Translations under genes and position numbers: made by a program
Shown here: positions 559 to 21,137 of the stretch, one piece after another
Layout: each line of letters begins with the position of its first letter
Numbering within the stretch: the stretch's first letter is position 1
The notes under the pieces: model-generated
The model's database searches: none
What the model was told of the DNA's origin: nothing
Seen by the model: only the letters and a program-made list of their open reading frames with translations
From: Fomitopsis serialis
Lineage: Eukaryota > Basidiomycota > Agaricomycetes > Polyporales > Fomitopsidaceae
Assembly (NCBI RefSeq): GCF_022376445.1
Contig: NW_025955025.1
Coordinates: 62,001-126,000, forward strand
Direction: 5' to 3'
Length of the DNA stretch: 64,000 bases

Positions 559-736
559 ATCTGCCCGCTCGTCCGCTAGTCCGCTAGTCCACTCTTCTGC
601 TCGTCTGCTCGTCTGCCCGTCCACTCGTTCGCCCGCTCGTCCGCCCATCTGCCCGTCCACTTGTCCGCCCGCTCGTCCGCCCATCTGCTGGTTCGCCTAC
701 CCTCCCGCTCGTCCATCCGCTCGTCCGCCAGCTCGC
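559..736. repeat. CT/CG-rich minisatellite
   Basis: The plus strand repeats variants of the words GCTCGTCCGCC, CATCTGCC and CGTCCAC for about 180 bp, including a nearly exact direct repeat of about two dozen bases. The minus strand would translate as Gly/Arg/Asp/Glu-rich nonsense in several frames, so I read this as a simple-sequence minisatellite and not a gene. Confidence 0.7.
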
Positions 737-924
737 CCAAGCAATACTGCTGCTTAGCATACCACGACGTGAACATCGCAGTCGCTGTATGCTTCGATGA
801 TGTGCCAGATGGCGGATCTGCTACAGGGGCCACTGACATTTTCATCTCGCAGTTCATAAAGTACTTAGGAGGTCCACAAGCTGTTTGATACTCTTATCCA
901 GCGCCGTCGGGCAACCAATGTTAC

Positions 925-976
925 TTCTTTGGTGCAGCGGTTATCGCCTTCCCTGGTGCGCAGGTTCAAGTCTCTC
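925..976 (+). other. tRNA-like A box/B box pair (possible SINE head)
   Basis: TGGTGCAGCGG at about 930-940 resembles a Pol III A box. GGTTCAAGTCT at 963-973 is a close match to the B box. The spacing is right for an internal promoter, but I cannot fold a full cloverleaf with an acceptor stem. This may be a tRNA-derived SINE head or a decayed tRNA; a chance match is also possible. Confidence 0.3.
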
Positions 977-1900
977 ATAATATCATTTTTGCAGATTTTG
1001 GGGTTTAACAACACGGTGACGTTGAGAATTTACAAAACATTTTATCACAGACAATCCCAACACTCCACCAGTACTAGTCCGGCATGGCTCGAGTGCTATG
1101 TACTCTGATCAAGGCCAAAAACCATACGCATTGTGAATCGCGCTGTCGACGCATGAGCGCCGAGCATTGTCCTGATTCGGATGACCGCGCGACGCCCGAG
1201 GCAATTCTCACGAGGCGGGGGTATGTCCCTTGGACAGAGCCACTGTCTCCTTTAGGCAGGTGCATCAGATGAGGATCTCTGATGCGACCGTTACTTTGGG
1301 CGCCTCACGGGCGTCTATTCAAAGGGGGGGTCGCCCTCACAAACTGCCCCAGATGTGTCGGAGCGGTGGTGGGGTGCGTCCACACGGATGGGTACAAGAC
1401 CAGAGAGTGCCAGCTGCAGATCACAATATTTATGTATCAGGCCTGGACTACAAGGGCAGTAATTGATGTATCAGTATGCCAGCTACAGGTGCCTGAGGCA
1501 TCCCCGAGGCTGTATTCCCTGGCTACATCCGTGAAAAATGGGCATGTCAGCAACAACGGGGAATGGGAAACAATACCTGAGTAATGGGAAAAATGGGCAG
1601 CAGCAGCCTGGGCGCCTTCCACCTGTACAATACTTGCCCAAGGTGTCCCCGAGGTGGGATTTCCCCGCAAAATGGGCATCCACAGGTGGGAGCACACATA
1701 GCTACGGGCAATAAACAAGCAACATGAGTAACGGGAAATACAATACAAGTCAGTACTGGGAGACCAGGATATGTCATTAACAGGAAACTATAAAGTACGT
1801 AGTCAGTACCAGGAAAATACTTACAAGACTACATAAACACCAGGACAACACACATCAATAATCACAAGAGTAACACACAGCATTGAACCAACCAAACGCC

Positions 1901-1929
1901 GCCAGCCCATGGCGAAGCCGCGGGCTGGC
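1901..1929. repeat. GC-rich hairpin with GCGAAGC apex
   Basis: The arms GCCAGCCC and GGGCTGGC pair perfectly, and GGC-GAA-GCC forms the tip, with a two-base mismatch between outer and inner stem. It is an isolated GC-rich fold in CpG-poor surroundings. Confidence 0.6.
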
Positions 1930-1985
1930 ATTGCATTAGCATGTAACCTTAGAAGTAACATGGTGCACAGAACAAAAGGACCGCT

Positions 1986-2015
1986 GCCAGACCTGTGGCG
2001 AAGCCCAGGTCTGGC
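1986..2015. repeat. GC-rich hairpin with GCGAAGC apex
   Basis: The arms GCCAGACCTG and CAGGTCTGGC pair over 10 bp. A single unpaired T leads into the same GGC-GAA-GCC tip as the hairpin 70 bp upstream, although the outer arms differ in sequence. Confidence 0.6.
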
Positions 2016-5000
2016 ATGCAATAGCATTGTAATATTATGGGCCAGGGCGACATGAAGCAGCGAATGAAGAACTGCCCCAGCAACCCATAGCGAAGCTCGT
2101 GAATGGAAGACAATGTTCATTAGACCATGTGGATCATTCTCTTCCTCAGTGGCGAGATGCAATAGGGAGCCATTGCCATCCTGGACATTGACTAAACTTC
2201 AGGCTTGAGACAAGCAAAGTTCAGCGCCACAGGCGCATCGCACCAGTCACGTGGGCGTAACTCACTTGCCTCTTGCTGGCTGCGATGCGCATCAAGAGTG
2301 TTTCCCAGGGTGTTTCGCGCATGTGGGAATTCTCAAGTGCATTGGTATGTTTTTTCTATGTGTGAGACAAGTATATCACACTGAAATCTGCTCTGGGAAC
2401 ATCATATATGCTATATGTCACAGGCTCAAACTGGCATGATACAATTGACCAAGCAGACAGCATTGGCTACTGACCACGTACTTGAAGGCAGCCAGAATGC
2501 ACTTAAAAGTATCATTGCATGGGCAATTGATGGGGTCATTATGGAACAGTCTCCAATTTGGCCCACTACATGATTGCGTCAAGGCGCACATTGTGATCCT
2601 CTTTGCCAACATCACATTCTGCAGCTCCACAGAGATGATGCCCACAATGTGCAGAACAAAGGCAACAGTGAGGAGCAAATTGGTTTTCAGGCTCACGATG
2701 TCCCAGAATCTGGGTGTATGCCATGAGACAAACAGGAAGAGCTTCAATGAAGAGCTGGTACACGCAATCAGCCTGAGGGGAAGGGATGGAGGTATGTAGA
2801 GCTCAGCAGACTAACCTTGTGTGAATCTACAGTGATGTTTTGAGTGCATTCAGAGCATTGCATATGCACATTCTGGCTCAGACTCTCCGTGGAAGGAGAA
2901 TGTGTTACTACTAGTAGTAGGGGCTTACAGGATGTGATCTTTGACAATACCTGTCATTTGCATATTCTCAAAGAGGCACACAAGCTGGACAGAAGTGGGC
3001 ACAAGGCTCTCCACTGCAAGAAGCAGGGCCAGTTTCCCAACATGCCAATACCAATGTTGCTAGACAAAGAGCTGCATGCCGAGGCTGCTGCATCAACAAA
3101 TGACTGGCACTGCTTTGAGTGATCAAGCTGGTTGGTGAGACAAGACTCACAAAACTCAGCAGACTGAGAGGAGAGATCAATGCTCAACTCAACGTACCCC
3201 AGCTTTTAATGACAATGAAGTCCCACAGGTCTGGCTGCCAATGAAGACGAATAACATCAAGAAAGCAGTGGCCCCACAGGAGCTCAAATAGACTTATTTT
3301 GTGTGCACATGTACTGGTCTGTCTGAGTCAATAGTGTCACTGCTCGCTCAATGCTTGAGATACTGGATCAGAGACTCAACTTAATCTTGACTGGAGGCAG
3401 TACTATACTAGCACCACTGTCCACTGATCCACCAGCAGAACCTGAGCCTGATTTGGAAGCAGATGAATTTCATGTTGCCGAGATGTTTTGTGCCTGTAGA
3501 GGCCAATGTGCAGACAAGACACAATTGAGAGTCTGACCACAATATTGGTGGTGCGTTGCTGACTAAGTGGACCAGGAGCAGTACTGGTGTTGCCCCTCTC
3601 CATTTTGTGCCCCGTGTAACTTCTAAGCTTACATGCTAATGCAATGCCAGCTGGGTGGTTCCACCACTGGCTGGCAGCATTTGGTTCTTTCAATGCTGTA
3701 TGTTACTCTTGTGAGGCATGTTTTCCTAGTGCTTATGCAGTCTTCCCATTACTGACATGTGTTTTCCTGGTACTGACTACATAATTGGTGGTTTCCTGTT
3801 ATTGATGCTTCCTGGTCTCCCAGTACTTAATTGTGTTGTGATTCCTGTTACTCATGTCATCTCCTTTAGCTATGGTGTATGCTCCTGCTGTGTGATGCCC
3901 ATAATCACCCATTAGAAATCCCACCTCAGGGGCGCCTCAGGCAAGTATTACTCAGGTGCAGGGGAGCAGATGGTGCCCCAGCTGTTGCTACCCATTTGTC
4001 CTGTTACACAGGTGCTGTTTCCCATGACTGTTCCCTTCCTGGGATTCTGGTTGTAGCTGACATGCCCATTTCACATGAATGTAGCCAGGAAATGCTGGCT
4101 CAGGGACACCCTGGGCTAGCATCACATAAGCGCCCACAGGCAGAAGGCACCAAGAGCTTAGGGGAGGAGGGCACACCACATGAGGCCACACAGCAAAAAT
4201 GGCTTGCCATGTGAGCAAGCTACACCACAGATCCAGGCTCCTAAAACCAGCTGTCCACAGTGTTCTTGTTCCTACATGTTGCTGGGGGAATATATGCTTT
4301 ATATTGAAACAGCATTTCATACTGAACCATGGTGGCAACAAGGGACCAAGGGTTCCTCAACAGCACTCAATAAGACTACTGAACAACATGTGCAGGGCCC
4401 CATGGAGTCACTGTGTACTTCACTAACGTGCCAGGCTGCCCACTTCCCCCACACAGCATCCCCCACACAGCATCAACAATAATCTCCCCAGTGGCCATGC
4501 AGGAGTTCTCTCTGCAGATACTCCAGTAAATAAGACCTACCATACGGGTACATCATTTTGATGAGTCAATAAGAGCCCTCTAGGGCATGCCTTGGTGACC
4601 AGTTGGGCCAGACATCCTACAGGGTTCTCTTTGTCTTAGTCAGCTAGGGGGTTCCATATATAGGAAGTAGAAAAAAATCCATTTTCTGATGCAGCATGAA
4701 ATCCTGTTTTGATATAAAGCTAGAAATCTCCCAGTGACATGTAAGAATGAGAACACTGTGGATGGCTGGTTTTAGGAGCCTGCCACAGATCCACCCTCAA
4801 TCACATTCCTTTTAGATGGAAAGTGGCAATGTGAGCATAGCAAGGGGTGTTCTCATCTGCCCTCATATTTGCAAGGTGACATGAGGGGGAGGTTTCTTGA
4901 GGAAGAGGCTAGAGGTTGGGCCCAGCATTAGCCAGGGACAGACATGGAGAGAGAGCCACTGGGTGGGCAGGCCTTCTCTAAAACAATTACCTTCCCTCAG

Positions 5001-5200
5001 AAGTGCATCTCACCCCTCTTGGCAAACTCAGTGCTGCAGCAATGGGGAGTGGTGGACAAGAGAAAATCACCCAATGGTGCTAAACACCAGAGTGAAGTGT
5101 TTGGGCTGTGCTCAGGCAGACACCAGGACTGCCCTTGCAAGCTCACCAGTCCTGCACTTCAGGTGTTGTCTGAAAACAAAATTTGGTTCCTTCATGATAC

Positions 5201-5450
5201 ACTGCACGGCATTTTTGTCAACATCAGTCATAACAGGGCTTGAGCTTCTAGTTGAGTTGGGGTGAAACTAAAGGGAAACTGAAGTGAAGGTTAATCCAAA
5301 GAGAAACATGAACTGCCAACAATGAACTTGACAGACTGAGTGGACCAGCAATCCTAGTAGCTGATTAAGTCCCAAACTTTATGTGCACTTCACTTCAGAT
5401 TTACAGCTCAACCCCTGTTATGACTGATGTTGACAAAAATTTGATACAGT
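5201..5450. mobile_element. MITE-like element, about 250 bp
   Basis: TTTTTGTCAACATCAGTCAT at about 5,212 recurs as its reverse complement near 5,421-5,440. The match continues to AACAGGG on the inside and, with CG/TG differences, to an ACTG end on the outside. The element has no coding capacity. A TA dinucleotide lies near each end, which fits a Tc1/mariner-like origin, but the target duplication is not clean. Confidence 0.55.
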
Positions 5451-5516
5451 ACGTCAGCCTTTCTCAAAGTGCTCTAGGTCATGGCTATCTCTTATCTCTT
5501 CATCATACCTAATAAA

Positions 5517-5718
5517 AGTTACTGGCTGGGGGCAGCCAGTAACTCCCCTAACCTTGCCAAGAGTGCCCAAATGTCTCCAGGAGCTCCCTTGTATTACAAG
5601 GCAAAGAATACACACAAGCACTCACTTAAAAATGCGCGAGGGGGTCTTGGATGTGGCCAGGAAGAGCGTGGGAAACAACCCAAAAAAGGAAATTTTACTG
5701 GCTGCCCCGGCCGGTAAT
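5517..5718. mobile_element. MITE-like element with palindromic ends
   Basis: The left end AGTTACTGGCTG-GGGG-CAGCCAGTAACT (5,517-5,544) is a hairpin in itself. The right end (5,695-5,718) is its inverted copy but reads CCGG where the left reads CTGG. The ends therefore form terminal inverted repeats of about 24 bp that differ mainly by CG-to-TG changes. The interior has no gene. Confidence 0.6.
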
Positions 5719-5720
5719 TA

Positions 5721-8700
5721 TTATATAGTTAGGGACGTCATGAGGACCTTGCCGCTGCCAGTGTATGCGTACGCAAGGCATCGCTCCAGAAGGGCCACCA
5801 GCTCAATTTGCGTGGGCGGGATGATGTTCCGCTCGCGCAAGAATTGGCTAAAGTCCTCGAAGAGCTCCACCAGCAGGGACGATATCGGGAAGGTGGTCCA
5901 ATGATACACAGCGGGAAATACCTGTCACTCACAGGTCAGACAGCAGCACCGTCAGACAACAGAAACGGAGACGTACTTTTGGCTCAAAGACCACAAGGTG
6001 CTCTCGCAGGGGCAGCTGGATGTCCGGGCTGAGCGTTCGTGCGATGAGCTGGATGATGATGTTCCGATACAACACCCTGGTGAACATTGAGGTCAGCCCA
6101 GTAAATCACAAAGTGCCGCATAACACGAACGTACTCTCCGGTTCGCATATCAGGTGGAAGGTTGTCGAAGTTGACCACGAACATGTTCTCCAGTCGTAGG
6201 TCCCGTGCGACGCTCTCATCCATCAGCAATGTCTTCAGGCGTTCGTGCGGAAGCTGCCCAGTGAGACGGCTGAGCAAGTTGGCGAGGACAGCCTGGGCAG
6301 GTTTTGAGCGGGCCCATGCACCGGTGAAGGCCTGGGTCATCATTCCCGTGCAGACCTCGTGGGAGCGAGCGGTGGGCCGCATCCTGTGTGAGAACGCGTT
6401 GTACATCTGTGACGACCATGCCTCGATGATCGGGCCCAGTCCACCGTGGGCGAGCACATACTCCAGCTCCGCTTCTTCTTGTTCAGACAGAGGTGGGACC
6501 CTTGGCCGTTTGCGAGACGACCCAGCATCCCCCGCAGCAGCCGCTGCCTCGTCCTCAAGCACGGCAAGGAACCGACGCATGACCTTTCGAGTCGTGAGAG
6601 ACTCCTTGGAAAATCCTGCCGGTGGGGGCGGGAGTCCCCTGCGAAGCTCTCGTTCGATGTCGAGGATGGTACTGTTGTACTGCTGGAACATGCGCGTGGA
6701 CTGCACGTTCCCGTATCTGCCGAGCAAAGCCTGTGGGTAGGAGTGCACAGCGAATGCCTTGCCACTTCCACGTTCCGCCTCCATCGCGTCCAGCTCTTTT
6801 GCCAGCCGTGTTTCCTCGTCGTCGACATCATCATCGCTGCCTTCAACACCTTGGTCCTCGTTGAACTGGGCCCGGAACTCTTTGTCTTCGCTGTTGTCCA
6901 CATCAGATCCATTGCCGTCTCCGCCATTGCCTGCAGCCTGCTGCCGTCGACGTCGGGCAGCTTGCCGAGCATTCGCCACAGTGTCGTACATGTCGTGGAT
7001 GCTCATCAAGTCGCAGAGCACACCACAGCTGAGCTTCGGGTCGTAGTCTTCGTTGGGCACCCGTCGAGCGATCCGCCGACCCTCGTAGGTGTAGATTGGA
7101 TTCTCCTTGCCGTCCTGGTCCAGAAGTGGATATGTGTACAGGTCCACGGGGTCATCGCTGTCGTAGCGGTCGTGAGTGTCATAGACATCACCGTGTTGGT
7201 CGAGAATGTCGTCCGGGTCAATGGGTGTCCAGTCATTGACCACCCGAGCTCTGTTGTCCAGGTGTCAGAGGCCACACAGCGGGATTATGTGAGATGCCAC
7301 TCACCCAATGTGTGTCGCAATGGCTAAACTCGCCGTTCGAATCCGAGACCAGTCACGTTCACCACCCCATCTATCCCGCTCATTGGCAAGAGAGTTCTGC
7401 ACGCCAATCTCCTCGTTCTGCCCATACCGAACTGACATGATGAGGGGTGTGTGATCCGTGAAGAACCTATCTTCCTTCCACGCAGCTGGCATCTCCCGGA
7501 CAAATCGCTTCCACACTCGCGGCATGCACTCGTCCAACGCCCTTGCCTGAGCGAGGGTCACGTTCATTGCGGGGCCCGAACTGTGCAAAGAATGTGCGTG
7601 TCAGTCAAGTCAAGTGCATCACCACCCATATCTTACCCGCACTCGCGCAGTCTGCGCCAATGCGGGTAAATACGAACAACAAAGGCCTGGAGAGATGACC
7701 CGTTTCGACAAGCATCTCTTCCCGCACTCGCGCTCGCTGCGCCAATGCGGGTAACCGGCCGGGCTACTACTATATGGGAACAGACCGACTCACAAGATGT
7801 TGCAGATATCGTCAAAGGACCACTTCTTCAGGTCCGTCCCTTTCCCATATCGGAGATGGTCGGCCAGAGAGATGTCCCGGTAGTGGATCTCAGCGAGCCA
7901 GTGCACGACAAAGAGCGTGTAAATCTTGAACCTCGTCGGGGTGAGACGCGAATCCCCTTTCTTCACGTTGTAGCCAGACGAAGGCGGAGCACGTCCAGGA
8001 TCGTACATGTCCGCAAAGAACACGTTCGGCGCAAAGACCATCCAGAGGTTCTCCAGACCGTACTTGCCAAAGTACGCGCACCGTCCATCCGTATCAAAAC
8101 CGGCCTTGCCCTTCGCTTTCATCTGGCTGTTCTGCTGCTGGATCTGCAGCACCAAGACATAGTTGTGCATCGAACGTGCCTTTGGCAATGCGACCGGAAG
8201 ACCCTGCGTGCGAGGTACGTACATCACAAAGTCAAGGTAGTGCGGGCCACCTCGCCAGTGCAGGCGCGGATCGTCCGGCTCGATGATCATGTTGTCGTCC
8301 ACCTCCACCTTCGTCCTCGTCTTCAGCAGCGACACCGCCTCCTTGATCGTCCGACGGTTGACCCCCTCGCTCATGCGCTTGAGTTCGGACAGCTTGATCC
8401 GCCGCTGCTTCATATTCGTCCACACCCGCTCTGTCTCATTTCGGTCCACCGCCGCGGTGTGCGCCTCAAACGTGTGACGACCCACATCATCCTGGCTCAT
8501 CGGTTCGTCAGTGGTGAGGCTCATCGGCACGTTGTCCAGATTGAAAGGCTCGTCCAAGCCAGTGAGCGCACGGTCAGCTCTTCGTGGTCTCTGCATCAAT
8601 TTGAAACGGTGAGTCACAGCAGTTGACGATGACGACGGACGGTAACTCACATGGCAGCATCTATGACCCTCTGGTGAGCTTCTGTCAGTTGGTCTTCGTC

Positions 8701-8879
8701 CCCCGGGTCCTCGTCACCGCTGCCACGCCCTTAGCATACTCGCACAACAGTCAGATTTGTAGGAGTACGCACAACTCGTAAAAGTCCCTGTTCCCATTTG
8801 CAGGAAGGGCCAGCGGTGCGTCGCGCGGGTCCAACGGAGCAGACCGGTCTTCCTGTGGTGCGTCATCGCTCCGGGGCAT
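5721..8879 (-). CDS. Gene B: large multi-exon protein of unknown function
   Basis: I do not recognise the family. The model runs from an ATG at 8,879 to a stop at 5,721. Main exons are about 7,794-8,590, 7,305-7,580, 5,977-7,250 and 5,721-5,921, with matching phases at the 7.6, 7.3 and 5.9 kb junctions. The protein is about 900 residues with a long acidic, Asp-rich linker followed by a helical C-terminal half. The intron at 7,581-7,793 is about four times the usual length because it holds two copies of the GC-rich palindrome. The frame breaks near 6,085 (one base extra or two missing) and reads well on both sides. It lies downstream of gene A on the same strand, and both carry the palindrome in introns, so they may belong to one element. 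The exons upstream of 8.6 kb are uncertain. Confidence 0.55.
7633..7754. repeat. Two copies of GC-rich palindrome in gene B intron
   Basis: Copies lie at 7,633-7,669 and 7,719-7,754. Each begins near CCCGCACTCGCGC and ends near GCGCCAATGCGGGTAA. Both sit in the long intron of gene B, and their right arms carry the variant CCAATGCGGG. Confidence 0.85.
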
Positions 8880-10818
8880 CGTTGCTGGCAGGCGGGCAAC
8901 AGGGACAGCAGCGGGCGACAAGGGGAGGGCAACACACACGCAGACTCAAGGAAGGAAGGACGGGGGAGAGAGAGAGAGAGAGAGACAAACGGACAGTGAG
9001 AAGGATGGGCACGGTCTAGGGTGAGCGGAGACAAATGCCATCAAATTCGAGACAGGGTCGCGTGGCAACAGCGGCGGGATGAGCCTGGAATAACATTTCC
9101 GGCTGTGAGCTTGTGCAACGACTCTTCGGGCGGAGGGACACCAAATTAGGCGACGCACTGTGGCTGTGAGATGCAACCGCACCTTCTTGATCGGCGCGTG
9201 TTGCGCTGAAACACTCCAAGCCGATCGAGCTGCTACAAATGGTCATGCCGCCGCAGCACCCTCGGGCAGTTCACAAGTCCCCGAAACCGCAGCCCGCGGA
9301 TGGCGGAATCCGACGTGTTTTGGGCTGAAGTCAGAGAATGAGGGACTGAGCATTGTCTCTGCACTTGACAAGTTAAGTTCAGCAACGGCGAACCACGTCC
9401 GATGCACCACATTTGTTTGACCGCGTTGCGTTCGAGCGAACAGAACGGTCAATTGACACACATACCCAGTTTGTTCCGTTTGGACCGTTCATCCTCCCTT
9501 GGCCGGTGTGTGCTCTTGTACGTTGATTACCACTGTAGATATACATGATGTTGTCACTGTGACTTAGTCATTCATTTTGTGCGTGTTCCCAACCGCTCTT
9601 GTTGCTGTTGCTCTGGTTAGTCACCGTTTATCATACCTCCGCAGAGTTGCTCTTTTGCAAGTTCAATCGCATCGCCTGTGCTGTTGGTGAATGATTACAG
9701 CTGTTTCCAAAACGATGGGCCCCGCATCAAGAAACCGCACTCAGGCGGAGTGTGTCGGTCTCCCTATTCCCATCAAGATTGGACCATAACCGGCACGTCG
9801 AGGGCGAGCCAGACTACGGCGGGTGGCTGAGGTCGACTGGCAGAAGGTGCGGATCACCTTGAAGGCAAGATCCGACGCTCTCCGCCCGTGTACGCATTTT
9901 TGATGAGGGGCCTATCGTTTTGGAAACAGCTGTAATAACGGTGGTGCTTCAGACGGGATTACTTATCTGTTGCGAGATGTGTTTGCATCGTGTAATGGCC
10001 ACGTTACACAAGCCCGCTTAGGGACACGATACAATGTGTCACGGACTATCTAGGACTTGACCGATGAGATAGCTAGGGACGACGGACATGTTGTTAGGGA
10101 CTTACCAGAAATGTCCTGGCCTATCCCGTACTCGCGCTCTCTGGGATGTATTCCCTTGTCTTGCCAATGGCAGTGTCTGGGGCTCGCGCCCTTCTTTGTT
10201 CATGAATTCGTGTGCGCTCGCTTGCTCTTGGTCATCCTCGTGCCTCGACCTCTCAACTGGACATAACAGTGATCAACCCGATCCGCGCGTTGCACATGGC
10301 ACTCACTGTTGTAAACTGGCGTGACATGAGCAAAGTCAACTTGGCCATGCATGCATGTTGTCATGCCAACACGAACAGGGATTCTCCACTTTGAGGCACA
10401 CACACGACTCGGCGAGATCAGTGTCATGAAATGTCATCACAGAGTCACAGCAGAGTATTGTACATGAAGGGCCACAGCGAGCGGGGAACGACGTGAGAGG
10501 CATAGATGGCGGCACTGTACACGAGAAGAGATGCTACTGAAACCAAGTCAGCAAAAGGATCACGTGCAGCCACGTGACACAAGGACGTACCGAGGATATT
10601 GATGAGTACACAGTACAAGTGCTGCGTGGTTGCTGCATGCGCGTGAGTAGGTGCGAAAAACGAATGAAAGCGGACTCACAACACGAGTCGCCAAGCAATG
10701 ACGGTCAGCACGAACAACGAGACGGGAGAACGAACGACACAGTACACCAGCACAGACACAACAGGACACGACGTACAGAAGACGGAGCGAACGTACCAAG
10801 GACACGCGCGTGCGACGG
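8880..10818. other. Intergenic stretch between genes A and B
   Basis: I see no gene here. It contains a GA dinucleotide run near 8,967-8,985 and a MITE-like element at 9,694-9,936. Frames of 60-90 codons exist on both strands but have no partner exons or known motifs. It may include regulatory sequence for gene B. Confidence 0.5.
9694..9936. mobile_element. MITE-like element, 243 bp
   Basis: ATTACAGCTGTTTCCAAAAC at 9,694 is repeated inverted at the right end (to 9,936). The match of about 30 bp extends to CGATRGGCCCC with one mismatch. It carries no open reading frame of note. I could not identify a clean target-site duplication, so the superfamily is open. Confidence 0.75.
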
Positions 10819-13800
10819 TCAGAGCGACTGACCAGGGAGGCCACCCTGAATGATAGCGTCGTCGCTCGTATCGGGCGGTTGACTGCCACGCCCTTGCTGA
10901 CCGCGAGGCCGTGGTTGACCACGAGCACGACGATTTCCAGGTCCACCGCGACCGCGAGGCTGGGGTACCGGCGGAAGAGACGGTCCACGGGTACCGCCGG
11001 AAGTGCTCGCGTGCGGCTGAGGTTCCGAGGTGACTGACCGGGAGGCTGCCGTTTTGCCAGCACCAGCTCCGGTCAATCGAGTCGAGCGACGGGGGCCAGC
11101 AAGTTGTTGCTGAGAACGATACGTCGTGAGATTGACCGGTTCTACAAGAGATCAGATCACGTACCTCTTCGACGGGTCGCATCGGCTCATCACCGTCCAT
11201 GTCGAGCGTTTGCTGAACGGGCTCGCTCTCGTCCTGAGCCGGTGCACCGGAGGTCACACCGCTTGGGTCCGTGCTCGGGTTCGCAGTGGCCGGTGGTCCG
11301 CGGCAACGCGTTAGCAAGGCCGTTGCAAAGCTGTCGTTCAACAGCGAGGACGCTGCGGGGCGTCGGACGGCTGGATCCTCGAGCCATTTAGTGAGCAGAG
11401 TGGCGAGAGACTCTGTACCACGCATGTGAGTGAGATGCTTCAACATTGCCTGGAACGACGCACCGGTATGCTCGGCGAGGTAGTCCGCGACTCCTTGAGG
11501 GCGATGTTGTCCGCGATCATGTCTCGAGCAACAGGAGGTAGTACACGCGCACAGTGAGCATGCCCATCTGCGTCGCGTGATACCAAATGTCCTTCTCGAT
11601 GTCTTCGGCATTGAACGTGGGCGCGATCGGAAAAGACGACAGGAGATCGGAACCTGTGAACCAGGTCGCAAACTCGGACTCGCTGGACGTCTGCTCCGCG
11701 ATCGCCTTGAACTCGTCGAGCGTGATGCGGATGTCCCAGCGAGGACACTCGGCTTGGGCCTTGGCGGGCTTTCTGCTCTCGAGAATGACCGGTTCCAGCA
11801 CAGGAGACGGATGATCTGTGGCAAAAGGCCCATAGCGATGACTGGAAGGTAACAGATCAGTGGTATGTTCGGTACAAAGATACCGATCCAACCCGCACTC
11901 GCGCCGGCTGCGCGAGTGCGGGTAATGTCAGTAATATCGATGCATCTACCCGCACTCGCGCCGTCGGCGCCAACGCGGGTAGCGACGTGTCAAATACGCT
12001 GCACGTTACCCGCATCCGCGCTGTCGACGCGAGTGCGGGTAGATTGCTGTAAAATACACGCACGTTACCCGCACTCGCGCCGACAGCGCCAATGCGGGTA
12101 GTGACGTGTCAAATGTATGGCACGTTACCCGCACTCGCGCTGGCGACGCGAGTGCGGGTAGATGCATCACAAATACGTGTACCGTTACCCGCACTCGCGC
12201 TCGCTGCGCGGATGCGGGTAATAGCAATACAACTTGACGAACGTTACCCGCACTCGCGCTGGCGACGCGAGTGCGGGTAGTAGCAATGAAAATAACGTAC
12301 CGTCCTTGACGTGGTCGGCCGTCACGTCCGTCGGGAGTACGAGCTTCGGCGGGTCCTCCTGACGGTTCTTCTTCCGGTTAGGCGAGGCCGTCGTCTCCGA
12401 ACGCGTGCTTTCGTCACTCCGGCGAGGACGCTTGGAGGTCTTCGCGGCGGCAGTCGCGTCGTCCATGGTCACATCCGGGTCGGCCGGTACAGGCGTGTTC
12501 GGTGCAGCGACACCGACGGGAGGCGTAGCAGGGCCGGCTTCCTGAGAAGGCAGCGGTGCCGGGGCCCCGGCCATAGCATCGTCCTCGGACTGGCCAGTCG
12601 TCTCGGCCGTCGTGTCGGCTGGCGCGCCGCCCGCCACGCGTGTCTGGTCGAACTGCGTGCGGAGGTGCTCGACATCCGCGTCCGCAGCATCTGGCTCAGG
12701 CTCCGCCTCGTTGCCGGTATCCATCGCATCGTCCGTCCGGCTGGCAGGACGCACGACCTTGGAGACGAGTTCAGCATCGCCGGCCGAGCTGGGCTCGTCC
12801 TCGCTGAACCGTCGCTCCAACCAAGCAATCTGGCTTGGAGACGGAAGCGAACGACCCGTCTTCTTCGAGACGCCCTCAGCCCAAGGGTCTGCGCGAGCGA
12901 CACTTGGGATCCTCTCGGCCGTACCCCTCGCCTTCTCGATGAAGAACGAGTGCGGACTGTCGACGAACATCCAGTTCGGCAAGCCCGACAGCTCCTCGTC
13001 TGGAGAGTCGACGAAACCGTCGAGCTTGCGAGGCCACGCGCCCAAGACATCCTCAAGCGTGATCCGTTCGAACGTGTACAGCTCGTCGTTCGGCTCGTAC
13101 ACCGCGTCAGCATCTCCGGCCTCCACACGGTACATCATTTGTGCAGCCTTGTACATCATCGTCTGCAAACACAGGTCAGTCTCATAACCGCTGATGGACG
13201 ATTCTGACGTACGTTTGCAAGGTGCACGGCTGACGACATGATGTGCGCATCGAGCGTCCTGTGCTGCAGGATGTACCGCTCGTTCTCCGTCACCGTCAGC
13301 CCGTACATCTGCGGCACCGTCATGACCTGCTGCACGATCGACAGAATGTCCGCGCGCATGTTCTGCAGAGGTACGAATTCATTCTTGACGTGCTTCCGGA
13401 ACGCTGCCGTCGCGACAGCAGTCGGATTCGGAGTTTTGCCGTCCGGATTGCCCTCGGTTTCGTCCTCTTTCGTCCTCGCCACCTGTGTCGACGATCCGCT
13501 CGCGACGGGCAGGTCATCAAACGCGTCAACGTCGATGGGCACGGATTTTGATGCGTGCGCGGGCTGCTTGCCCTTCTTGTTGACCGTGATCGCCGACGTA
13601 CTCGCGGCTGGCTGCTTCGTCGCGGCTCCAGGGAAGAACATGCTGATCCCCAGCATGGATCGCTGTTCCATGTAGTCGAGCGCCTCCGTCTTGTACCTCG
13701 CCTCCTCCGCCTTGATCGCCGCCTTACCTTTCCCCTTTCGCTTCTTCCCTTTCTTGCCCGCCTGCGCTGCCGACTCCTGCTCGCCCCCTTCAAGCGGTGT

Positions 13801-16748
13801 CCCGTCCGCACTCACCGGTCCCTTCCCAGATCCGAAGCCCGTCAGTCGCCGTATCGCTGGGTGCGTGAGCAACCCGCGAAATCGCCCAATGTCCGACAAC
13901 CGGCCCTTCGCATACCATTCCGGCCAGTTTTCCGGGTTCGCCGGCTGCTTCACGACGAGCGACCAGCGAGGCCAGAAGATGGCGTCGTGCGTTGGTATGG
14001 TCTGGAACTGTTTCATCAGCGTCGTGAGGTCCTTTAGGTACGTGACGATCGGCGGAAGCAAGAACGATTCGCGGGCCATGATGGTCTTGTGAGCCCACGC
14101 AGCGATGCACGCAAGCGCGACCGGAACATAGTTCCGCGTCCAACCTTTCTCCTTTGGCAGCGGAACGCCCGTCCGAGCAAACGCTAACGCGCCCGGTATG
14201 TCCCATGTCAAGTCAGGTAACGGATCGGCGGGCGCGACGGGCCTGCCTGCGCTACCGGAGCTTGGCCGCAGGCTTCGGCTTGTTCTTCGCCGCCGTGCGT
14301 CCAGGCTTCGGGGCAAGCACGACAGGCGGAGTTTCCGCAGTGACCGATGCCCGTGGACCACCGAGCACGTTGCGGTGGCCACAGAGATGGACCACCCACG
14401 TCAGGAAGCTGGGCTCCTTCGGGAACGCCTGCTTCAGCGAAGGAAAGAGCTGGCGGATCATGTCCTCCGCCTCTTTCTCCATGTCCGCCGGCTTACGTTC
14501 CTTGTTAGCAGAACCGCGCGCACTACCTGGGGCGATGTCCGTGACACCGGCCGCAATCGGCTTGTCCATCCCGGTACGTATGTGCTTGTACTCGGTGTCG
14601 AACTCGATCTGCTGAGCGGTCAGCCTCCCGTAACAGTAGGCCAGCAACGGCATGAACCGCGTCCGTTTTGCCCACGACAACATCACGATCTGACATCATC
14701 CGGTGAGCACGGTCTCCGATCTGTATGTTGTACCACTGACCTTCGCGGCCAGGCTCTCGCTCACCGGCCCAATGTGCTTCTTCAGACCGCCCATCAGCTC
14801 AAGCGCAGTCAACGCGCCCACCAAGGCACCGGCCGACTTGTAGCGCAGGTCGTTGCCGACCGCACAAGCAAACAGCGACATCGGCTCGAGCACGAACGCG
14901 AGCTGACACCGGTGAGTAACAATCACCAGAGCACGGAGCGATGTACTTACCCAGATCCATCCCAACTCGTGCGTCGCACGGTCAACCAACAGGCACGAAA
15001 TCAAGCCGTGCGTGATCAGCGGTGCGGCCGTGACAACCGCGGCGCCCTGCGCCTCCACACTCCACGGATGGTACACGAACCGGATCCGCGCGAGGACCGC
15101 TGCACGATGCGCAATCTCCGCATCCGTGTCGCATGGCAGGAGGTCAGCCATGGCAGCATGCAACGCATCACCGTACGCACGCATCTGCTTGCAAGCGTCA
15201 GTCGTCCGCAGGTACAGCAGGCGCGGATCGTCCTCGACGATGTGCTTCTGGTGCAAGATCTCCAGAGCCTCGAAGACTTCCGGAGTGTACATAGAGTAGT
15301 CGGGCACCGCACGCAGGAACGCTGACCGAAGCCGGTTCATCGTACCGTACTCCTTGATGGTGTCCAGCGCGGCACTCTCCTGGCCGTCCGCACCGTATAT
15401 CTTCTCGCCCTCCTTCGCATGGTGCGCGTGTACGAACTCGTCCCAGTCCGTACATGCTTGCGTAACCTTGTCGTCCGACAGCGGGAAATCCTGCTTCGAG
15501 CCGATCAGGCCCATCGTCCGGTGCAAGTCGAGGACGGGGTAGATGACCGCCTGTATGACGTAGATAGTTAGCCAGAATCAAAATGGATTAACCTGATACT
15601 CACTCCAAATGTCGTCGTCGCTTCCTGCTCGAGTTCTCGCCACCGCATGATGCCGGTATTCTCAAAGTGGGACCCGAGCGACGTCAGTGCGATGCAGAAT
15701 CGTGCGAGCGGAAGACAGTGCACGATGCGCGAGAACATCGTGTTCGCGTGGTGCCCGCCCTTGACCTGTCGTTCCGCCTGCTGAGCCTCCTTGTGGGTCT
15801 CCTGCTTATCGCGCAGGACTTGGACGAGTTGCGACGGTTTGATCTCACACAGCGACTTCATCTCCATCGTAAACTTCTCTTGATCCCCCTCCACCTTCTT
15901 CCGTGCGTCGCGGTTTCGCGCGAGCGTGTTGATCGCCGCAGGTGAGAGTTTATCTAAGGATGGTATGAGTGATCGTGCGAGATTTGTGAGAACGATACGA
16001 ACGCACCGCTATCGAAGACCTCCGCCAACCACCACGCCCGCTCGTGCATGTACGCATGCGCATTCTCCACGTCCTGTTCACGTTGCTTGAGTTCGGCCCT
16101 CCACGCCTCCGACGTCTTGAACGAGGCCTTCCAATCGTCCACGCGCTTCTCCGTGCGCACGATCGCATTCTCACCGTCCTGGTGCCAGTCGGCAGACGCG
16201 TGCAGGCGATGCTGCCCGGCGATCACGTCAAGCACGACCTTCGATTTCTCGTCCTCAATCGCCTGGGCTGCAAGCTGCAGCTTCGGCGTCTTCGAGCCCT
16301 TGTGACCTGATACGATGAACGACTGGGGCTGACCGATCCACCGGGTACGGCGAGCAGAAGCGCGTTCTCTTGAGTACGTTGCGAGGCTCGTGCTTCAGGT
16401 CTTTCACGATACCCTCGCGGTGGTGAGCATCGAGCGGGCGCGGGTTCCAACGTTGGTACAAATAATCGACCTGCATTGCTCTCATAAGCCAGGGCGATGC
16501 CGGCACGAGCGTGAAGCCGAGGCATGCTTCCGCCGCCTCTGCGAGAAGCTCAGCCTCCCGATCCTGTTCAGCGCCCTGACCGGCCGTCATGGGCATTGGG
16601 ATCCCCCGATCACGTCCAAGTCCGGTTGAATCTACATTGACAACTGTCAGTGTCGATCGGCCACTGATTTGATAATGGTACGTACCTCTTCATACTGCAG
16701 CGACTGATCCGAAGGGCCAGGCGACCGAGACGAGCCACGGTCAGACAT
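10819..16748 (-). CDS. Gene A: giant ParB/DGQHR-like protein with RG-rich tail
   Basis: The best model has ten exons from an ATG at 16,748 to a stop at 10,819, about 1,690 residues. The N-terminal 150 residues contain the motif VVLDVIAGQHRLHA (about 16.2 kb), which matches the core of ParB-like and DGQHR/DndB-like folds (consensus D/A-GQHR). A helical region follows, then Lys-rich and acidic Pro-rich linkers, and a C-terminus rich in RGG/RG dipeptides, typical of nucleic-acid binding. Exon ends include 16,378, 16,007, 15,604, 14,951, 14,741, 13,213, 12,301 and 11,165. The intron 11,842-12,300 is nine times normal length and holds seven palindromes. Frame breaks occur near 14,245, 11,527 and 11,490, and some junction phases near the ends are unresolved. 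Whether it is a nuclease, ATPase-like ParB or pure binding protein cannot be told; the family is unnamed to me. Confidence 0.55.
11890..12279. repeat. Seven-copy palindrome array inside gene A intron
   Basis: Copies start at about 11,890, 11,947, 12,006, 12,065, 12,125, 12,185 and 12,244, so the period is 57-60 bp. Each unit is about 36 bp with arms TACCCGCACTCGCG and CGCGAGTGCGGGTA around a variable tip. The spacers of about 24 bp are AT-richer and resemble each other (most end in CACGT or similar before the next unit). The array fills an enlarged intron and is not coding. Confidence 0.9.
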
Positions 16749-16895
16749 GGCACAGCACAGATGACAAGCAGAGTGAGATGAAGAGCGTAGAGATGTGCGC
16801 GAACGCACGATCGATCTGTGGGCGTATGTTTAACAAGGTAAGTGTGCCCCGAACGCATGGCTACGGATACGTCCGAAGCACATGATCGTGTGACA

Positions 16896-17263
16896 TTACC
16901 CGCACTCGCGCAGCCAGCGCGAGTGCGGGTAAAGATACCGATTAAGATCAATGGATCTGGTCTCTCGATGCTACCGGTCTATCGTTATTTACCCGCACTC
17001 GCGCCGGCGACACGAGTGCGGGTAACGGTACATCAAATTGTACTACAACTACCCGCACTCGCGTCGCCGGCGCGAGTGCGGGTACTGTTCATGTAATTCT
17101 ATCGTTATTTACCCGCACTCGCGCTGGCGACGCGAGTGCGGGTAACGTGTCACATAATTAGTGTGTCGTTACCCACATTGGCGCCGTCGGCGCGAGTGCG
17201 GGTAAATGACTGATTTGTAAGCTTCTTTACCCGCACTCGTGCCGGCAGCGCGAAAGGGGGTAA
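16896..17263. repeat. Six-copy palindrome array upstream of gene A
   Basis: Copies start at about 16,896, 16,989, 17,049, 17,109, 17,169 and 17,227. The last five are spaced 58-60 bp apart. The copy at 17,169 has ACCCACATTGGCG in its left arm and an intact right arm, and the copy at 17,227 is degenerate on the right. The array begins about 150 bp upstream of the gene A start codon. Confidence 0.9.
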
Positions 17264-17381
17264 AATACCCCTACAAAATGGGTATTCGGTAGTAAGTGTA
17301 TGAGTGACGCATGAATCATTGACGTAGCTATATTATTACTGTACTGTGTTAGTGTGTTGTGTAGAGTAATGATCCGTCTAT

Positions 17382-17474
17382 TCACCCGCATCTGCGCTGT
17401 AGCGCGAGTGCGGGTAACTGTCTTGGACAGTGGTCGTTTACCCGCAATGGCGCATGTAGCGTGAGTGCGGGTAG
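17382..17474. repeat. Two palindrome copies
   Basis: Copies at about 17,382-17,418 and 17,438-17,474 keep the right arm GAGTGCGGGTA and have altered left arms (CCGCATCTGCG, CCGCAATGGCG). They are 56 bp apart, continuing the spacing of the preceding array after a gap. Confidence 0.85.
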
Positions 17475-17527
17475 GGAAATGGGAAATTGATGGGTGTTCC
17501 TCATGTGCAGAGGTCCAGTTTTTTGTG

Positions 17528-17590
17528 AAAACCTCGCCCTGACCCCGCCCTGACCCCGAACATTGGTCGAAAATCCCCTATAATAGCGAT
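17528..17590 (+). promoter_or_regulatory. Promoter-like module, copy 1
   Basis: CCCTGACCCCG occurs in tandem twice, then ATTGGTCGAAAA (an inverted CCAAT core) and CCCCTATAATAG (TATA-like). The same order of elements recurs at 21.19-21.26 kb. It points rightward toward the gene starting at 18,014. Promoter function is inferred. Confidence 0.4.
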
Positions 17591-17746
17591 GCGAGCGACA
17601 GAGGGATCGATAACAGGCAGCGCGAGTCAAAGTGACACGCGCGTTGCGTGCGTCCGGCTGCATCCGTGACAACACGTGCGAGCCAGTCGTGACCGCACGT
17701 GCACAACGCGACGCGCGATCACGTTCGCCGGACGACTTGCTCACGT

Positions 17747-17846
17747 GTATCCGCATTCGCGCCACAGCGCGAGTGCGGGTAACAGCCCTACACCAATGTA
17801 GACCGTAATTTTACCCGCACTCGCGCCGTGGCGCGAGTGCGGGTAA
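17747..17846. repeat. Two palindrome copies
   Basis: Copies lie at about 17,747-17,782 and 17,811-17,846. The second is a perfect inverted repeat of 17-bp arms (TTACCCGCACTCGCGCC) around a minimal tip. The first has TATCCGCATTCGCG in its left arm. Confidence 0.9.
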
Positions 17847-18013
17847 GCGTACAGTTCACGTACAGTCTCGCGCGGATGAGTTGGACCCCATAGTACTAAT
17901 CCAGTATTAAACACGATCTTGCTTAATCGGGCAGCGGTCTACCGCGCGGATCAGCTGATCGGCCTCGCGAGGCCTGCACTTCCCGCACATCTAATCATCA
18001 CTCACCACAGAGC

Positions 18014-19257
18014 ATGGAACCAAATGTGCCAGACGAGACGTCCGGTATGTAATGCACTCCTGTGTTGCGCGATCATGGATCTTATAATAGACGTAGGGCG
18101 CGGTACGGTCAACGCGTCTAGAGGCCCCAGCGCGACGGATGACTTCGTTGCAATTGTGAGAGGAACGCCTTGATACTTGCCGATGTATTTTGCTGACCGT
18201 CGCACATGCCAGTTGACCGGTGACCTCCGGTGCGCATGCTGCAAGAAAGACAACCTCCAGCAGTGCAAGATACGCGCAAGGAGTGTAAGGTGTCAGTATT
18301 GCCAAGACACGCGCAAGCGGAAGTGTACCTAAGTGTGAGTTGGTCAACAATCACGCGTTCACACCGGCCGACATCACATCGTTTCACTCGTAGAACTACA
18401 TTCGCCTGGGCCTCATCACCGTGGCCGAAGATGGTACCGCGACGTACGCGCCAAATGAAGAAACCGAGAACATGGAGGTTCCGGCAGGCATGCGCAAGAA
18501 GTGGCTCAGCGTCCCCAAGAAAGCTCCACAGACCGGGAGGCGCGGATCCACGCACAAGGGGAAAGCCGTTGCGTCGCGGGCCCAACGCAGCTCGCGTGAC
18601 GAGAGTGAGAGGTCTGACACGTCGCTGCATGCGGGGCCCAGCCGCAAGCGCCGTCGGCGCACCTCTGATGCTACGTCTTTCGTACCGGTACGTCGATTTA
18701 CACTCGCTACTTCCTCTCACTCACCTTCCGATTCAGTCCGATGCTTCGCGCTCGCCCGCGAGCGTTCGGCCCACCAGTAGGAATGAAAGTGTCGACGAGT
18801 TGGACGAGGATGCGGACGGGGGCACAGGTGCGGTAGGAGTCACCGCCACGGACGAGGAGAGATCGACGGTGAAGACGATAGTGCCGAGGATGACACGGAG
18901 GATAGCGAAGCGGAGAAAGAGGCAAATGATCGCGAGGTTAGGGCCGAGCCGGAGCTCACTCGCAAATGGCTCAGCAAGCCGCGAAGGAGCACGGGGATGG
19001 ACCGGTACGAGCTCGCGGCTGAAGAAGCCAGTCTCGCGACAGACCGCAGCAAGCTCGCCTTGGAGATTGCGAAGGCCGGCGGGGACAATGCGCATTACGC
19101 CGCCAACAAGGTAGAGGCGGCAGAGCGCAGGGTCGCTATTCTCGAGCGCAAGGTCGCAAAGCTCGAGAGCGACCTTGAGGACAGCAACCAGCGCACCGCG
19201 ACGCTCGAGTCCCGCCTCGCGAAGCTCTCGAAGGACGTCAGGAAGATGCGGAAGTGA
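18014..19257 (+). CDS. Cys-rich (Zn-cluster-like) protein with C-terminal coiled coil
   Basis: An ATG at 18,014 and short exons lead to a Cys-rich segment at about 18.2-18.33 kb with spacing C-x-C-C-x8-C-x9-C-x2-C-x7-C, reminiscent of fungal binuclear zinc clusters in its C-x2-C half. A basic Ser-rich linker follows (exon ending 18,690), then an acidic stretch, and an 86-residue heptad-rich coiled coil ending in a stop at 19,255-19,257. The exon joint at 18.34-18.39 kb is not resolved, and the frame slips by one base near 18,858, in a G-rich run, between the linker and the acidic part. The layout matches the gene at 19.7-20.6 kb on the other strand. A DNA-binding regulator is the likeliest role, by inference. 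Confidence 0.5.
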
Positions 19258-19280
19258 CTTGTATTGAAAACGGTGCAACT

Positions 19281-19375
19281 ACCCGCACTCGCGCCACGGC
19301 GCGAACGCGGGTAACACCATCGCATCCCTTCACATTGTCGTTACCCGCGTTCGCGCCGTGGCGCGAACGCGGGTA
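19281..19375. repeat. Two palindrome copies, one with compensated arms
   Basis: Copies lie at 19,281-19,315 and 19,341-19,375, just past the stop codon of the coiled-coil gene. The second reads CCGCGTTCGCG on the left and CGCGAACGCGG on the right, so both arms changed together compared with the usual CACTCGCG/CGCGAGTG. Confidence 0.9.
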
Positions 19376-19525
19376 GATCGATTCACTCGTGACACTGCGC
19401 GTAACTACTGTAAATGTATTTGTTGACTGTGGGAGGTCGTAGTATCGCTCGCTAAAATGAATGAATTGACGTGATCGTACCTGCCGTTTGGAACCATCAA
19501 AATCCGTCGAGCTGCCGCAGATTTG

Positions 19526-19559
19526 TACCTGCATTCGCGCTACGGCGCGAGTGCGGGTA
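19526..19559. repeat. Single palindrome copy
   Basis: TACCTGCATTCGCGC and GCGCGAGTGCGGGTA flank a TACG tip. The left arm has two changes that are not compensated on the right. Confidence 0.8.
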
Positions 19560-19718
19560 GCATGTGTGTTAATTAATTATTTGCACGTCTCAGATCGTCG
19601 ATCGAGTGCATAGTTCGGTGGTCAGATTGAACAGACATATGTCGAGCATGCTCCAGAAGTGGTAGTACATGTGGTTTACATACATGCACGATGCGATACA
19701 CTATCCCGACCTTCCTAC

Positions 19719-20585
19719 TCAATCATCTTCATCACCCCCATACCGAGCACGTTTCTTCTTCGTCGCCTGAAGGGCACCCCGCAATCTCGCGACCTCGTTG
19801 ATGAGCCGCGCGATCACCCCCTGATGGACGTTCAATCGTTCGGCCATAGGGAGATCCGATGATCGCTTGACATCGCGGATGATCGCACTGGTGTCGAGCT
19901 CGTTGAGTTTGCCTGTACCAGCATGAGTGTTCCGTTTCTCAATCAAAGAATGAACACTTACGTCTCGCGACACGATGGGCTCCAAAGTTCGAAGGCCCAG
20001 CACCCGCGTCAACACTGCTTGATGTTCCTGGCGACACAGGATCCACGTCCATCATCTGCCCACTGAGACGGTCGATGGGCTTGCAGAAGAAGCGGGCGAG
20101 TGCGACTGTGCAGATGCGATACGCCCGGCCGGCAGCGGGGATGATGAGTCGGATACAACGTTGGGCGGCGATGCGGGCGTCGAGCGAGTGACAGAACGCG
20201 AGGGCGAATGCGATGGAGAAGGCGCGGGCGAACGCGATGACGAGCGTGCACGTGGTAGAGAGTCGGGTGCGGAATTATTCTGCAGCACAGGTGCCAGGGA
20301 CGCGCGCGGCGAGTCAACCGCCTCAGAGGCTCGTTGGTCCTGTAGCGAGTGAGCGCGTCAAGAGAAAGACAGAAATACAACATGACTTACCGTGAGCGAG
20401 CAGTTGACCTTCCTCCTCATACAGCGGTGACAGCACGTCTTCGCGAAGGGCACCCTACACTCATCTCGCCCGTCATTCACACACCGCTTGCACCGCGCGG
20501 CCTCGACCAGCTTACAAGTCAGTAAGCTGCGATTGAGATAAAAAAGGAACCCACGTACCACGGTGTTTCGCACTCACAGAGGTCA
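19719..20585 (-). CDS. Cys-rich (Zn-cluster-like) protein with C-terminal coiled coil
   Basis: The Cys-rich exon (about 20.4-20.53 kb) reads RCKRC-x8-C-x6-CC-x2-C-x6-C, the pattern of a basidiomycete binuclear-cluster-like domain, and is followed by a GTAAGT donor. The middle exon is Ser/Pro-rich (about 20.05-20.29 kb). The last exon ends in a helical segment with a Lys/Arg-rich, acidic tail and a stop at 19,719. The frame slips by one base near 20,058 at a run of C on the plus strand (G on the coding strand). The start at 20,585 is tentative. It is the architectural partner of the gene at 18.0-19.26 kb, arranged tail to tail, so the two may be diverged duplicates. The predicted role is DNA binding with dimerisation through the coil. 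Confidence 0.5.
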
Positions 20586-20975
20586 TCTTGCGTGCACCTA
20601 CCTTACGCGCACACAATCTCCGTGTCGGCTGTCTTCATGCGCAGGTACGCACATCACCCCAGGGCGCGGTGGGCTTGCTGGATGTAAAAGAGAGGGAGAC
20701 AGGAGGCAGGAGAGGCGGGAGATGTGGTTGTGGGCAGGAGATCGTGTGAGCGCCCGTCGGTGGCTGAGCAGGTGGCTGACGTGATCTCGCCTCCCCTGTC
20801 ACTGCACATCACTGACGCACAACATGGAATGGACGCCGCATGCGGAGGGTGTAATGGATGATGTGGTACACCACAGATGCATGCCCTCTGTGCACCAGGG
20901 CACACGAACAAGTCGGTGCCTCTGAGATCGGGCGGGCGCTCGGACTTGCCAAACAAGGCAATGGATGTGTGGACT
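20586..20975. other. Short intergenic stretch
   Basis: No gene or clear repeat is visible between the start of the Cys-rich gene and the next palindromes. It is probably its 5' region. Confidence 0.4.
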
Positions 20976-21137
20976 CATCCGCAATCGCGCCATGGCGCGA
21001 TTGCGGGTAAGGGTGACTGGCAGAAGGCAGTCGCAGACTCAAATGGAGACTGCATGTTACCCGCGTTCGCGTCATGGCGCGAACGCGGGTAAGAGTACCT
21101 CGCATCCGCAGTCGCGCCATGGCGCGAACGCGGGTTA
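20976..21137. repeat. Three palindrome copies near the CpG boundary
   Basis: Copies lie at about 20,976-21,010, 21,057-21,092 and 21,103-21,137. The first pairs CCGCAATCGCG with CGCGATTGCGG, a compensated change. The second pairs CCGCGTTCGCG with CGCGAACGCGG. All three have a CATGG tip. They are the last copies in the window, and the CpG-poor domain begins just after them. Confidence 0.9.

Follow-up and report, generated by a model that had tools for sequence, protein, structure and literature searches.

What carries some 25 copies of a GC-rich palindrome into a single block of a fungal contig, and what keeps their two arms alike? The question is raised by a 64,000-nucleotide stretch of Fomitopsis serialis (contig NW_025955025.1, here C612, positions 62,001–126,000; hereafter the window), taken from an assembly of 66.2 Mb in 806 contigs. 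A sequence-only reading of the window had counted about 25 such palindromes at 7.6–21.1 kb and had proposed, among other candidates, binding sites for the ParB-like product of a neighbouring gene A or a new class of minimal mobile hairpins. The palindrome block consists of two subtelomeric elements, E1 and E2, which that reading had not recognised, and we are confident that the palindromes are parts of elements residing near chromosome ends. On balance, they appear to be dyad recognition sites for a protein encoded by the elements themselves, a view informed by comparison with two sister families, E4a and E4b.

Palindrome arms and palindrome words

Recounting from arm matches gives 25 palindromes at 7,633–21,137, as the earlier count had it. 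The half-site TACCCGC-nnTn-GCG is followed by its mirror half after a tip of 7 nt (16 of 25) or 6 nt (9 of 25); all sixteen 7-nt-tip palindromes lie in E1, and those with a 6-nt tip comprise eight in E2 and one in E1. The window holds 54 arm matches at up to three mismatches, against 6.85 expected from shuffles. The left arm at 17,383 exceeds this limit and was taken from a palindrome catalogue of eight contigs, whose entries must have CCGC at the core of each arm and match between the arms at 10 or more of 14 positions; the window palindromes at 17,170, 17,228 and 19,526, whose core is damaged, are thereby omitted. Five single arms have no mirror (10,123, 27,058, 27,515, 28,528 and 50,610). 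A palindrome scan of the whole window returned ten, every one of this family, and an inverted-repeat scan of 21–64 kb returned just two short pairs unrelated to it. Clusters are spaced at ~60 bp in E1 and ~72 bp in the E2-type units on C547, and some palindrome centres are perfect palindromes with no loop. The window palindromes occupy upstream regions, gene gaps and two putative introns (nine of the 25 lie in these), a placement that agrees with the reading frames and with the earlier assignment to introns and intergenic DNA.

The sequence-only reading had also held that both arms change together. This is true of the copies it quoted (CAATCGCG, CGTTCGCG) and of the 6-nt-tip class, but not of the 7-nt-tip class, which makes up 16 of the window's 25 palindromes; that most of them do not covary had gone unnoticed. 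Among 34 unique 6-nt-tip palindromes (of 60), 151 of 170 inner positions carry agreeing letters in the two arms, against 121.9 ± 4.3 after shuffling, a level reached in 0 of 5,000 shuffles, and eight different matched inner words occur. The 33 unique 7-nt-tip palindromes (of 85) agree at 126 of 165 positions against 126.5 ± 3.8, which is chance: TACCCGC and GCG are mostly kept, and each arm's inner letters change without regard to the other's. This test took in 22 of the window's 25 palindromes; the catalogue filter tilts slightly toward matched arms in both tip classes, and related copies are non-independent. Covariation is real in the 6-nt-tip class and absent in the 7-nt-tip class. The contrary outcome named by the sequence-only reading, copies without a link to genes A or B and with arm changes at chance level, does not describe the family as a whole, and its second part is true of the 7-nt-tip class. 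Because the inner letters of that class are independent, two protein half-sites are more likely there than a paired hairpin, and the matched letters in the 6-nt-tip sites and in those of E4 are compatible with pairing or with repair by template switching.

The sister families bear on the question from another side. E4a palindromes read AGGTGATCGCGCG...CGCGCGATCACCT and E4b palindromes TAGGAGGGCGCGCG...CGCGCGCCCTCCTA; strict patterns find 41 of the former and 39 of the latter in the genome (reversed controls, 0). On C186, E4a and E4b are ~81% identical over 1,562 bp, and the end-proximal gene has 134 of 159 residues identical between the two. Thirteen E4a sites fall into two aligned clusters, of which the second lies ~4 kb further in, and the E4 sites near the fixed end stand ~150–610 bp from the terminus. 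Nine of the 13 aligned sites are intact in both families, and among their 117 base pairs 24 have changed in both arms with pairing kept. These two-arm changes recur at position 4 (nine of nine sites), position 6 (nine of nine) and position 7 (six of nine). Pairing was lost in six pairs, of which position 7 accounts for three, position 10 for two and position 12 for one, and was gained in one pair. The sister families hold most palindromes at aligned positions, and the word is different.

Such symmetry might reflect hairpins formed in RNA or single-stranded DNA as replication, processing or packaging signals, with base pairing itself being what is kept. Arms matching far above chance through eight inner words in the 6-nt-tip class, the 24 E4a/E4b pairs that changed in both arms as against six that lost pairing, and the nine palindromes in putative introns would all suit such signals. 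We consider this unlikely, because the variable letters of the 7-nt-tip class agree at chance level, one word at all sites of a family exceeds what pairing requires, some centres are loopless, and Rfam models run over the window at 5–22 kb with E up to 1 gave 16 matches, all below their own thresholds.

Palindromes are classic template-switch sites, and both the symmetry and the sameness could stem from copying errors without any function, template switching mending imperfect palindromes and conversion homogenising the sites. Exchange between units does occur, as the palindrome number in the gene A intron indicates (seven in the window, five on C186, six on C279 and six on C474), and the single pair that gained pairing is of the expected kind. 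We nonetheless doubt this account and hold it to be rather improbable. Outside the palindromes of the first E4 cluster, 146 of 568 aligned positions differ, yet within them the switch recurs at one set of three positions per arm; most sites keep their location between sister families; and a random process should yield more half-changed sites. Recognition by a protein is the reading that we favour for the palindromes.

The candidate binding protein

The product of E1 gene A is the leading candidate for the binder, an assignment that we make tentatively from its ParB/DGQHR-like stretch and its company. The palindromes travel with E1 and gene A copies. In addition, the sister family E4a, which has its own palindrome word, has its own GQHR-type protein; the stretch VYVITGQHRIAAS of that protein resembles VLDVIAGQHRLHAS of gene A, with an overall identity of 21%, so that two families with different words, E1 and E4a, each have a protein of this type. 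Of the earlier proposals, sites for a ParB-like gene A product therefore fit best, with the reservation that the ParB likeness is weak.

Gene models and introns of E1 and E2 were deduced from reading frames. Genes A and B are directed away from the E1 fixed end. Across the ParB/DGQHR-like stretch, the gene A frame is broken in the window and open in the copies on C186, C192 (two) and C279; the copies on C368, C474 and C547 read in another frame just upstream of it. Gene B stops at the E1 breakpoint in the window and continues in the C279 copy. One gene A exon has 13 genome matches, of which eight (98–100% identity) are spread over seven contigs, one (65%) is on C778 and four (26–52%) are on C448. 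None of 7,996 scored candidates reached E 0.001 in a homologue search with the joined gene A protein, one gene A exon had no match among viral contigs, and a PDB sequence search with both GQHR proteins gave best matches of E 0.14 or worse. No GQHR frame was seen in E2 in the stretches examined, and E2 has the E1 palindrome word and nearly the E1 terminus, which together suggest that E2 depends on E1.

In the mechanism we envisage, the element-encoded protein would bind the palindromes as a dimer, and a change in its specificity would drive the whole site set to a new word. Sites near the fixed end may serve element maintenance, movement or gene control, in a manner similar to that of subterminal transposase sites or of parS sites, and E2 would be a dependent partner that uses the E1 protein.

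Elements with a fixed inward end near telomeres

The limits of E1 and E2 were drawn from DNA comparison of the window with stretches of seven other contigs. The window E1 is 97–99% identical in nucleotide sequence to copies on C186, C192, C279, C368, C474 and C547 and matches C100 in one piece at 95%; its left breakpoint was recognised against C279. The window E2 is 95–99% identical to pieces on C100, C186, C279 and C474, and C547 has a more divergent E2-type unit, ~80% identical over 557 bp. The right end common to E1 and E2 is ATTGGTCRAAAANCCCCTATAAT, preceded by C-rich repeats; the sequence beyond this fixed end varies among copies, and the left ends vary as well. A genome search for ATTGGTCRAAAANCCCCTATAAT found 39 termini on 24 contigs (31 exact and eight with one mismatch; reversed control, 0), and the element end reads CCCCTATAA(T/A), with CTATAA followed by T at the fixed inward end. 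Units often abut one another. An E1 terminus stands directly on a cut-off E2 in the window (17,584) and on C279/C474, and directly on a cut-off E1 on C192 and C806; an E2 terminus stands directly on a retroelement piece on C100; and two joints on C186 set E4 termini directly on a cut-off E1 and on a cut-off E2, the units there terminating in GTCACTATAA followed by T. No complete unit with both ends, and no intact distal end, was found among the copies read. A 173-bp tandem repeat array adjoins an E1 copy on C192 (48,239–51,325). Distal of the cut-off E1, window positions 1–5,731 have a 198-bp match to C192 at 82% and are otherwise without likeness of at least 150 bp to the other stretches compared.

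Several observations place these units near chromosome ends. Of 15 pairs of neighbouring termini on one contig, 14 are co-oriented (sign test, one-sided, 0.0005); the pairs are partly non-independent, C279 being a near-copy of C474. Among contigs of at least 90 kb, 11 of 13 have the gene side of every unit facing the nearer contig end, and for 20 termini the median distance is 21 kb to the gene-side contig end against 203 kb on the other side. Telomere-closed contigs are a better witness of end location than contig polarity. The telomere unit is TTAGG, four consecutive TTAGGG having no match anywhere in the genome, and the contigs closed by (TTAGG)n are exactly four: C14, C63, C490 and C805. 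All four have units within ~22 kb of the end: E2 termini lie ~11.7 kb (C14), ~2.1 kb (C63) and ~22 kb (C490) inward of the telomere, and E4b palindromes lie 9 kb inward on C805. By strict patterns, at least ~30 of the 806 contigs have any such unit. Reading C63 outward from the chromosome, one meets a cut-off E2, a single TTAGG unit, a reverse-transcriptase element fragment of 394 bp, another ~170 bp and the telomere. We infer that new units join at or close to chromosome ends, fixed end inward.

Ordinary subtelomeric duplication, in which a host repeat spreads by recombination between ends and no mobile element takes part, would suit this setting and the 99% identity of C279 and C474 across 22 kb. 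It is improbable all the same, because the inward end is fixed and joined to many sequences and the other side is variable, the opposite of end-copying recombination, in which the inward breakpoint varies.

The sequence-only reading had described the palindromes as confined to one block. This is so within the window and not genome-wide, where a strict two-arm E1/E2 pattern finds 149 palindromes (reversed control, 0); the 50 of these located among the matches listed lie on 10 contigs, with an element terminus present on all 10, and, throughout the eight contigs read, the palindromes sit within or next to element copies. The same pattern has no match in viral contigs, and in a bacterial and archaeal collection it occurs on six contigs with one palindrome each, which we judged to be chance. 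On C547 (1–15,900), a long E2-type unit has ~20 palindromes with many matched arm types, and its long frames are mostly of low complexity. That the palindromes are independently mobile mini-hairpins, as the sequence-only reading had also entertained, which invade the elements in the way of bacterial REP sequences or yeast mitochondrial GC clusters, would accord with a short unit in many copies whose number varies between element copies, but this is very improbable given their constant association with element termini among the matches listed and their mostly aligned positions in sister families.

Taken together with the protein reading of the palindromes, these data lead us to propose, as a possibility that falls short of likelihood, a new superfamily of fungal chromosome-end mobile elements. 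Each self-sufficient family would pair a palindrome word of its own with a corresponding ParB/DGQHR-like protein, and upon a change in protein specificity the sites over ~4.7 kb would be rewritten symmetrically in place.

A number of points weigh against the favoured reading, that of dyad sites on chromosome-end elements. Regarding location, the polarity count is weak by itself, being inflated by the frequent breaking of contigs in repeats; in addition, the units on C789 and C412 are opposite in polarity, and C279 has one reversed unit. As to the sites, independent half-sites leave the arm matching of 6-nt-tip palindromes at otherwise free letters unexplained. In the E4 comparison, the E4b rows come from two copies (first cluster from C186, second from C46), position 7 is unmatched between the arms at three of nine sites, four of 13 sites fall out (two degenerate, one already deviant in E4a and one, in the second cluster, lacking an E4b palindrome at its aligned position), and an E4b palindrome close to that position aligns with no E4a site. 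With respect to the protein, gene A has no Pfam match, and no Pfam ParB was found at E up to 5 in E1 and E4a frames. The TIGR03187 DGQHR model, in E1 only, matches a C192 copy of gene A below threshold (E 0.061, 13 of 58.85 bits), and the ParB-like letters are our own motif reading, a weak one. No palindromes of these words accompany the two diverged gene A remnants, on C448 and C778, within the 2–3 kb examined. Finally, on C46 and C590 the E4a likeness ends soon past the start of the GQHR gene, so that a co-change of protein and word between the sisters is a conjecture.

The features of both elements in the window are collected in Table 1.

Table 1. Coordinates of the E1 and E2 features in the window, with the basis of each assignment where given.
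Start	End	Strand	Feature	Basis
5731	17584		E1 copy, distal (left) end cut off, fixed right terminus at 17,584	nucleotide comparison
17585	21256		E2 copy, distal (left) end cut off, abutting the E1 terminus, fixed right terminus at 21,256	
17562	17584	+	E1 fixed terminus ATTGGTCGAAAATCCCCTATAAT, C-rich repeats before it	
21234	21256	+	E2 fixed terminus ATTGGTCAAAAAGCCCCTATAAT, TCACCC-type C-rich repeats before it	
5984	8713	-	Gene B exons, family not recognised, sub-threshold Cwf15 match only	
11520	16748	-	Gene A, multi-exon (frame-based model), ParB/DGQHR-like stretch VLDVIAGQHRLHAS	
18787	19257	+	Open frame of E2 with coiled-coil-like end; coiled-coil matches weak, sub-threshold	
7633	7754		2 palindromes, 7-nt tip, in putative gene B intron	arm scan, catalogue, frames
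11889	12280		7 palindromes, 7-nt tip, ~60 bp spacing, in putative gene A intron	arm scan, catalogue, frames
16896	17474		8 palindromes (seven 7-nt-tip, one 6-nt-tip), upstream of gene A	arm scan, catalogue, recount
17747	17846		2 palindromes, 6-nt tip, in E2	arm scan, catalogue
19279	19560		3 palindromes, 6-nt tip, in E2, behind the coiled-coil-like frame	arm scan, catalogue
20975	21137		3 palindromes, 6-nt tip, ~120–280 bp from the E2 terminus	arm scan, catalogue

Other features share the subtelomeric neighbourhood. A 1,042-aa reverse-transcriptase-like frame lies at C279:225,257–228,382 (minus strand), with a Drt3a model match under its cut-off (E 9e-8) and 38 homologues, including one that has RVT_1 at E 6e-6. 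The 3' end of the element abuts TTAGG-type repeats, and on C805 the telomere cuts the element off; it is probably a telomeric Penelope-like element, judging from these sequence features. The frame was considered as a part of E1 and rejected, because telomere-type repeats mark a 3' end of its own, and C805, C100 and C63 hold separate copies or pieces of it. A hammerhead-like core seen by eye in this element has no Rfam support and is not claimed. In the window, frames with DEAD/Helicase_C and OrsD domains at 41,544–46,258 (minus strand) are possibly a subtelomeric RecQ-type helicase gene, and the 24 kb at 24,000–48,000 are strongly skewed, with G over C and A over T.

Known chromosome-end elements and the meaning of the palindromes

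Mobile elements stacked at chromosome ends are already known. In Drosophila, HeT-A, TART and TAHRE form head-to-tail chains whose fixed inward end is joined to arbitrary end sequence. The elements described here share both traits and differ in having no oligo(A) tail, in showing no gag or reverse transcriptase in the frames scanned, and in their palindrome arrays. The Pfam scan covered some of the E1, E2 and E4 frames, from units of which none is delimited at both ends, and found no reverse transcriptase; neither a transposase nor a polymerase appeared among the frames scanned.

MoTeR of Magnaporthe is a fungal telomeric retrotransposon that is often truncated. FoTeR of Fusarium is described as an element of chromosome ends, often truncated, that lies beside telomere-linked helicase genes, has canonical telomere repeats at its 3' end and encodes a reverse transcriptase (PMC12857005). 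Unlike MoTeR and FoTeR, E1 and E2 have termini flanked by sequence without canonical telomere repeats and no reverse transcriptase in the frames scanned. Terminons, the Athena-type telomeric Penelope-like elements of rotifers, are large head-to-tail end units with several open frames, cut off on the telomere side and with C-rich repeats near a fixed 3' end, as described (PMC6431247). Terminons and fungal telomeric Penelope-like elements are like the present elements in their large head-to-tail units at chromosome ends, their several open frames, their cut-off telomere side and their C-rich repeats. E1 and E2 have no telomere-complementary 3' repeats, ending in CCCCTATAA(T/A) and not in CCTAA repeats; the Rfam scan of the window at 5–22 kb (E up to 1) gave no hammerhead; no reverse transcriptase appeared among the E1, E2 and E4 frames scanned; the E1/E2 fixed end is joined to arbitrary and not telomeric sequence; and genes A and B point away from the fixed end and look intron-bearing, with palindrome arrays present. 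Since no telomere-repeat 3' end was detected, nor a hammerhead in the window E1 and E2, nor a reverse transcriptase in the frames scanned, we do not class E1, E2 and E4 as Terminons or fungal telomeric retrotransposons.

Two systems with clustered sites offer a different comparison. As in ParB-parS and DGQHR systems, a GQHR-motif protein and clustered palindromic sites occur on one element; in contrast to ParB-parS, no Pfam ParB was found and the DGQHR match is sub-threshold, and a typical parS is about half the length of these palindromes. The E1 cluster that stands ~110–690 bp from the terminus recalls the subterminal site clusters of En/Spm-type elements, from which E1 differs in that no transposase was found in the frames scanned and sites also lie deep inside the element. 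A Helitron was rejected as well: the end, CTATAA followed by T, fails the 3' CTRR plus T rule, and the E1, E2 and E4 frames scanned contain no Rep/helicase domain.

We know of no chromosome-end element with arrays of long palindromes that differ in concert between sister families, and a literature search of incomplete coverage found no element in which the word of such arrays differs in this way. If the sites are protein-bound, the elements would add a class at chromosome ends in which no reverse transcriptase or transposase is yet recognised. If an element protein binds them, the E4a/E4b pair would make it directly testable how a DNA-binding protein and its many sites can shift specificity jointly and still work. 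Should the full proposal be true, these fungal elements would be a natural system in which DNA-binding specificity and an entire site set switch together, and perhaps a eukaryotic partition-like or end-tethering complex on selfish DNA.

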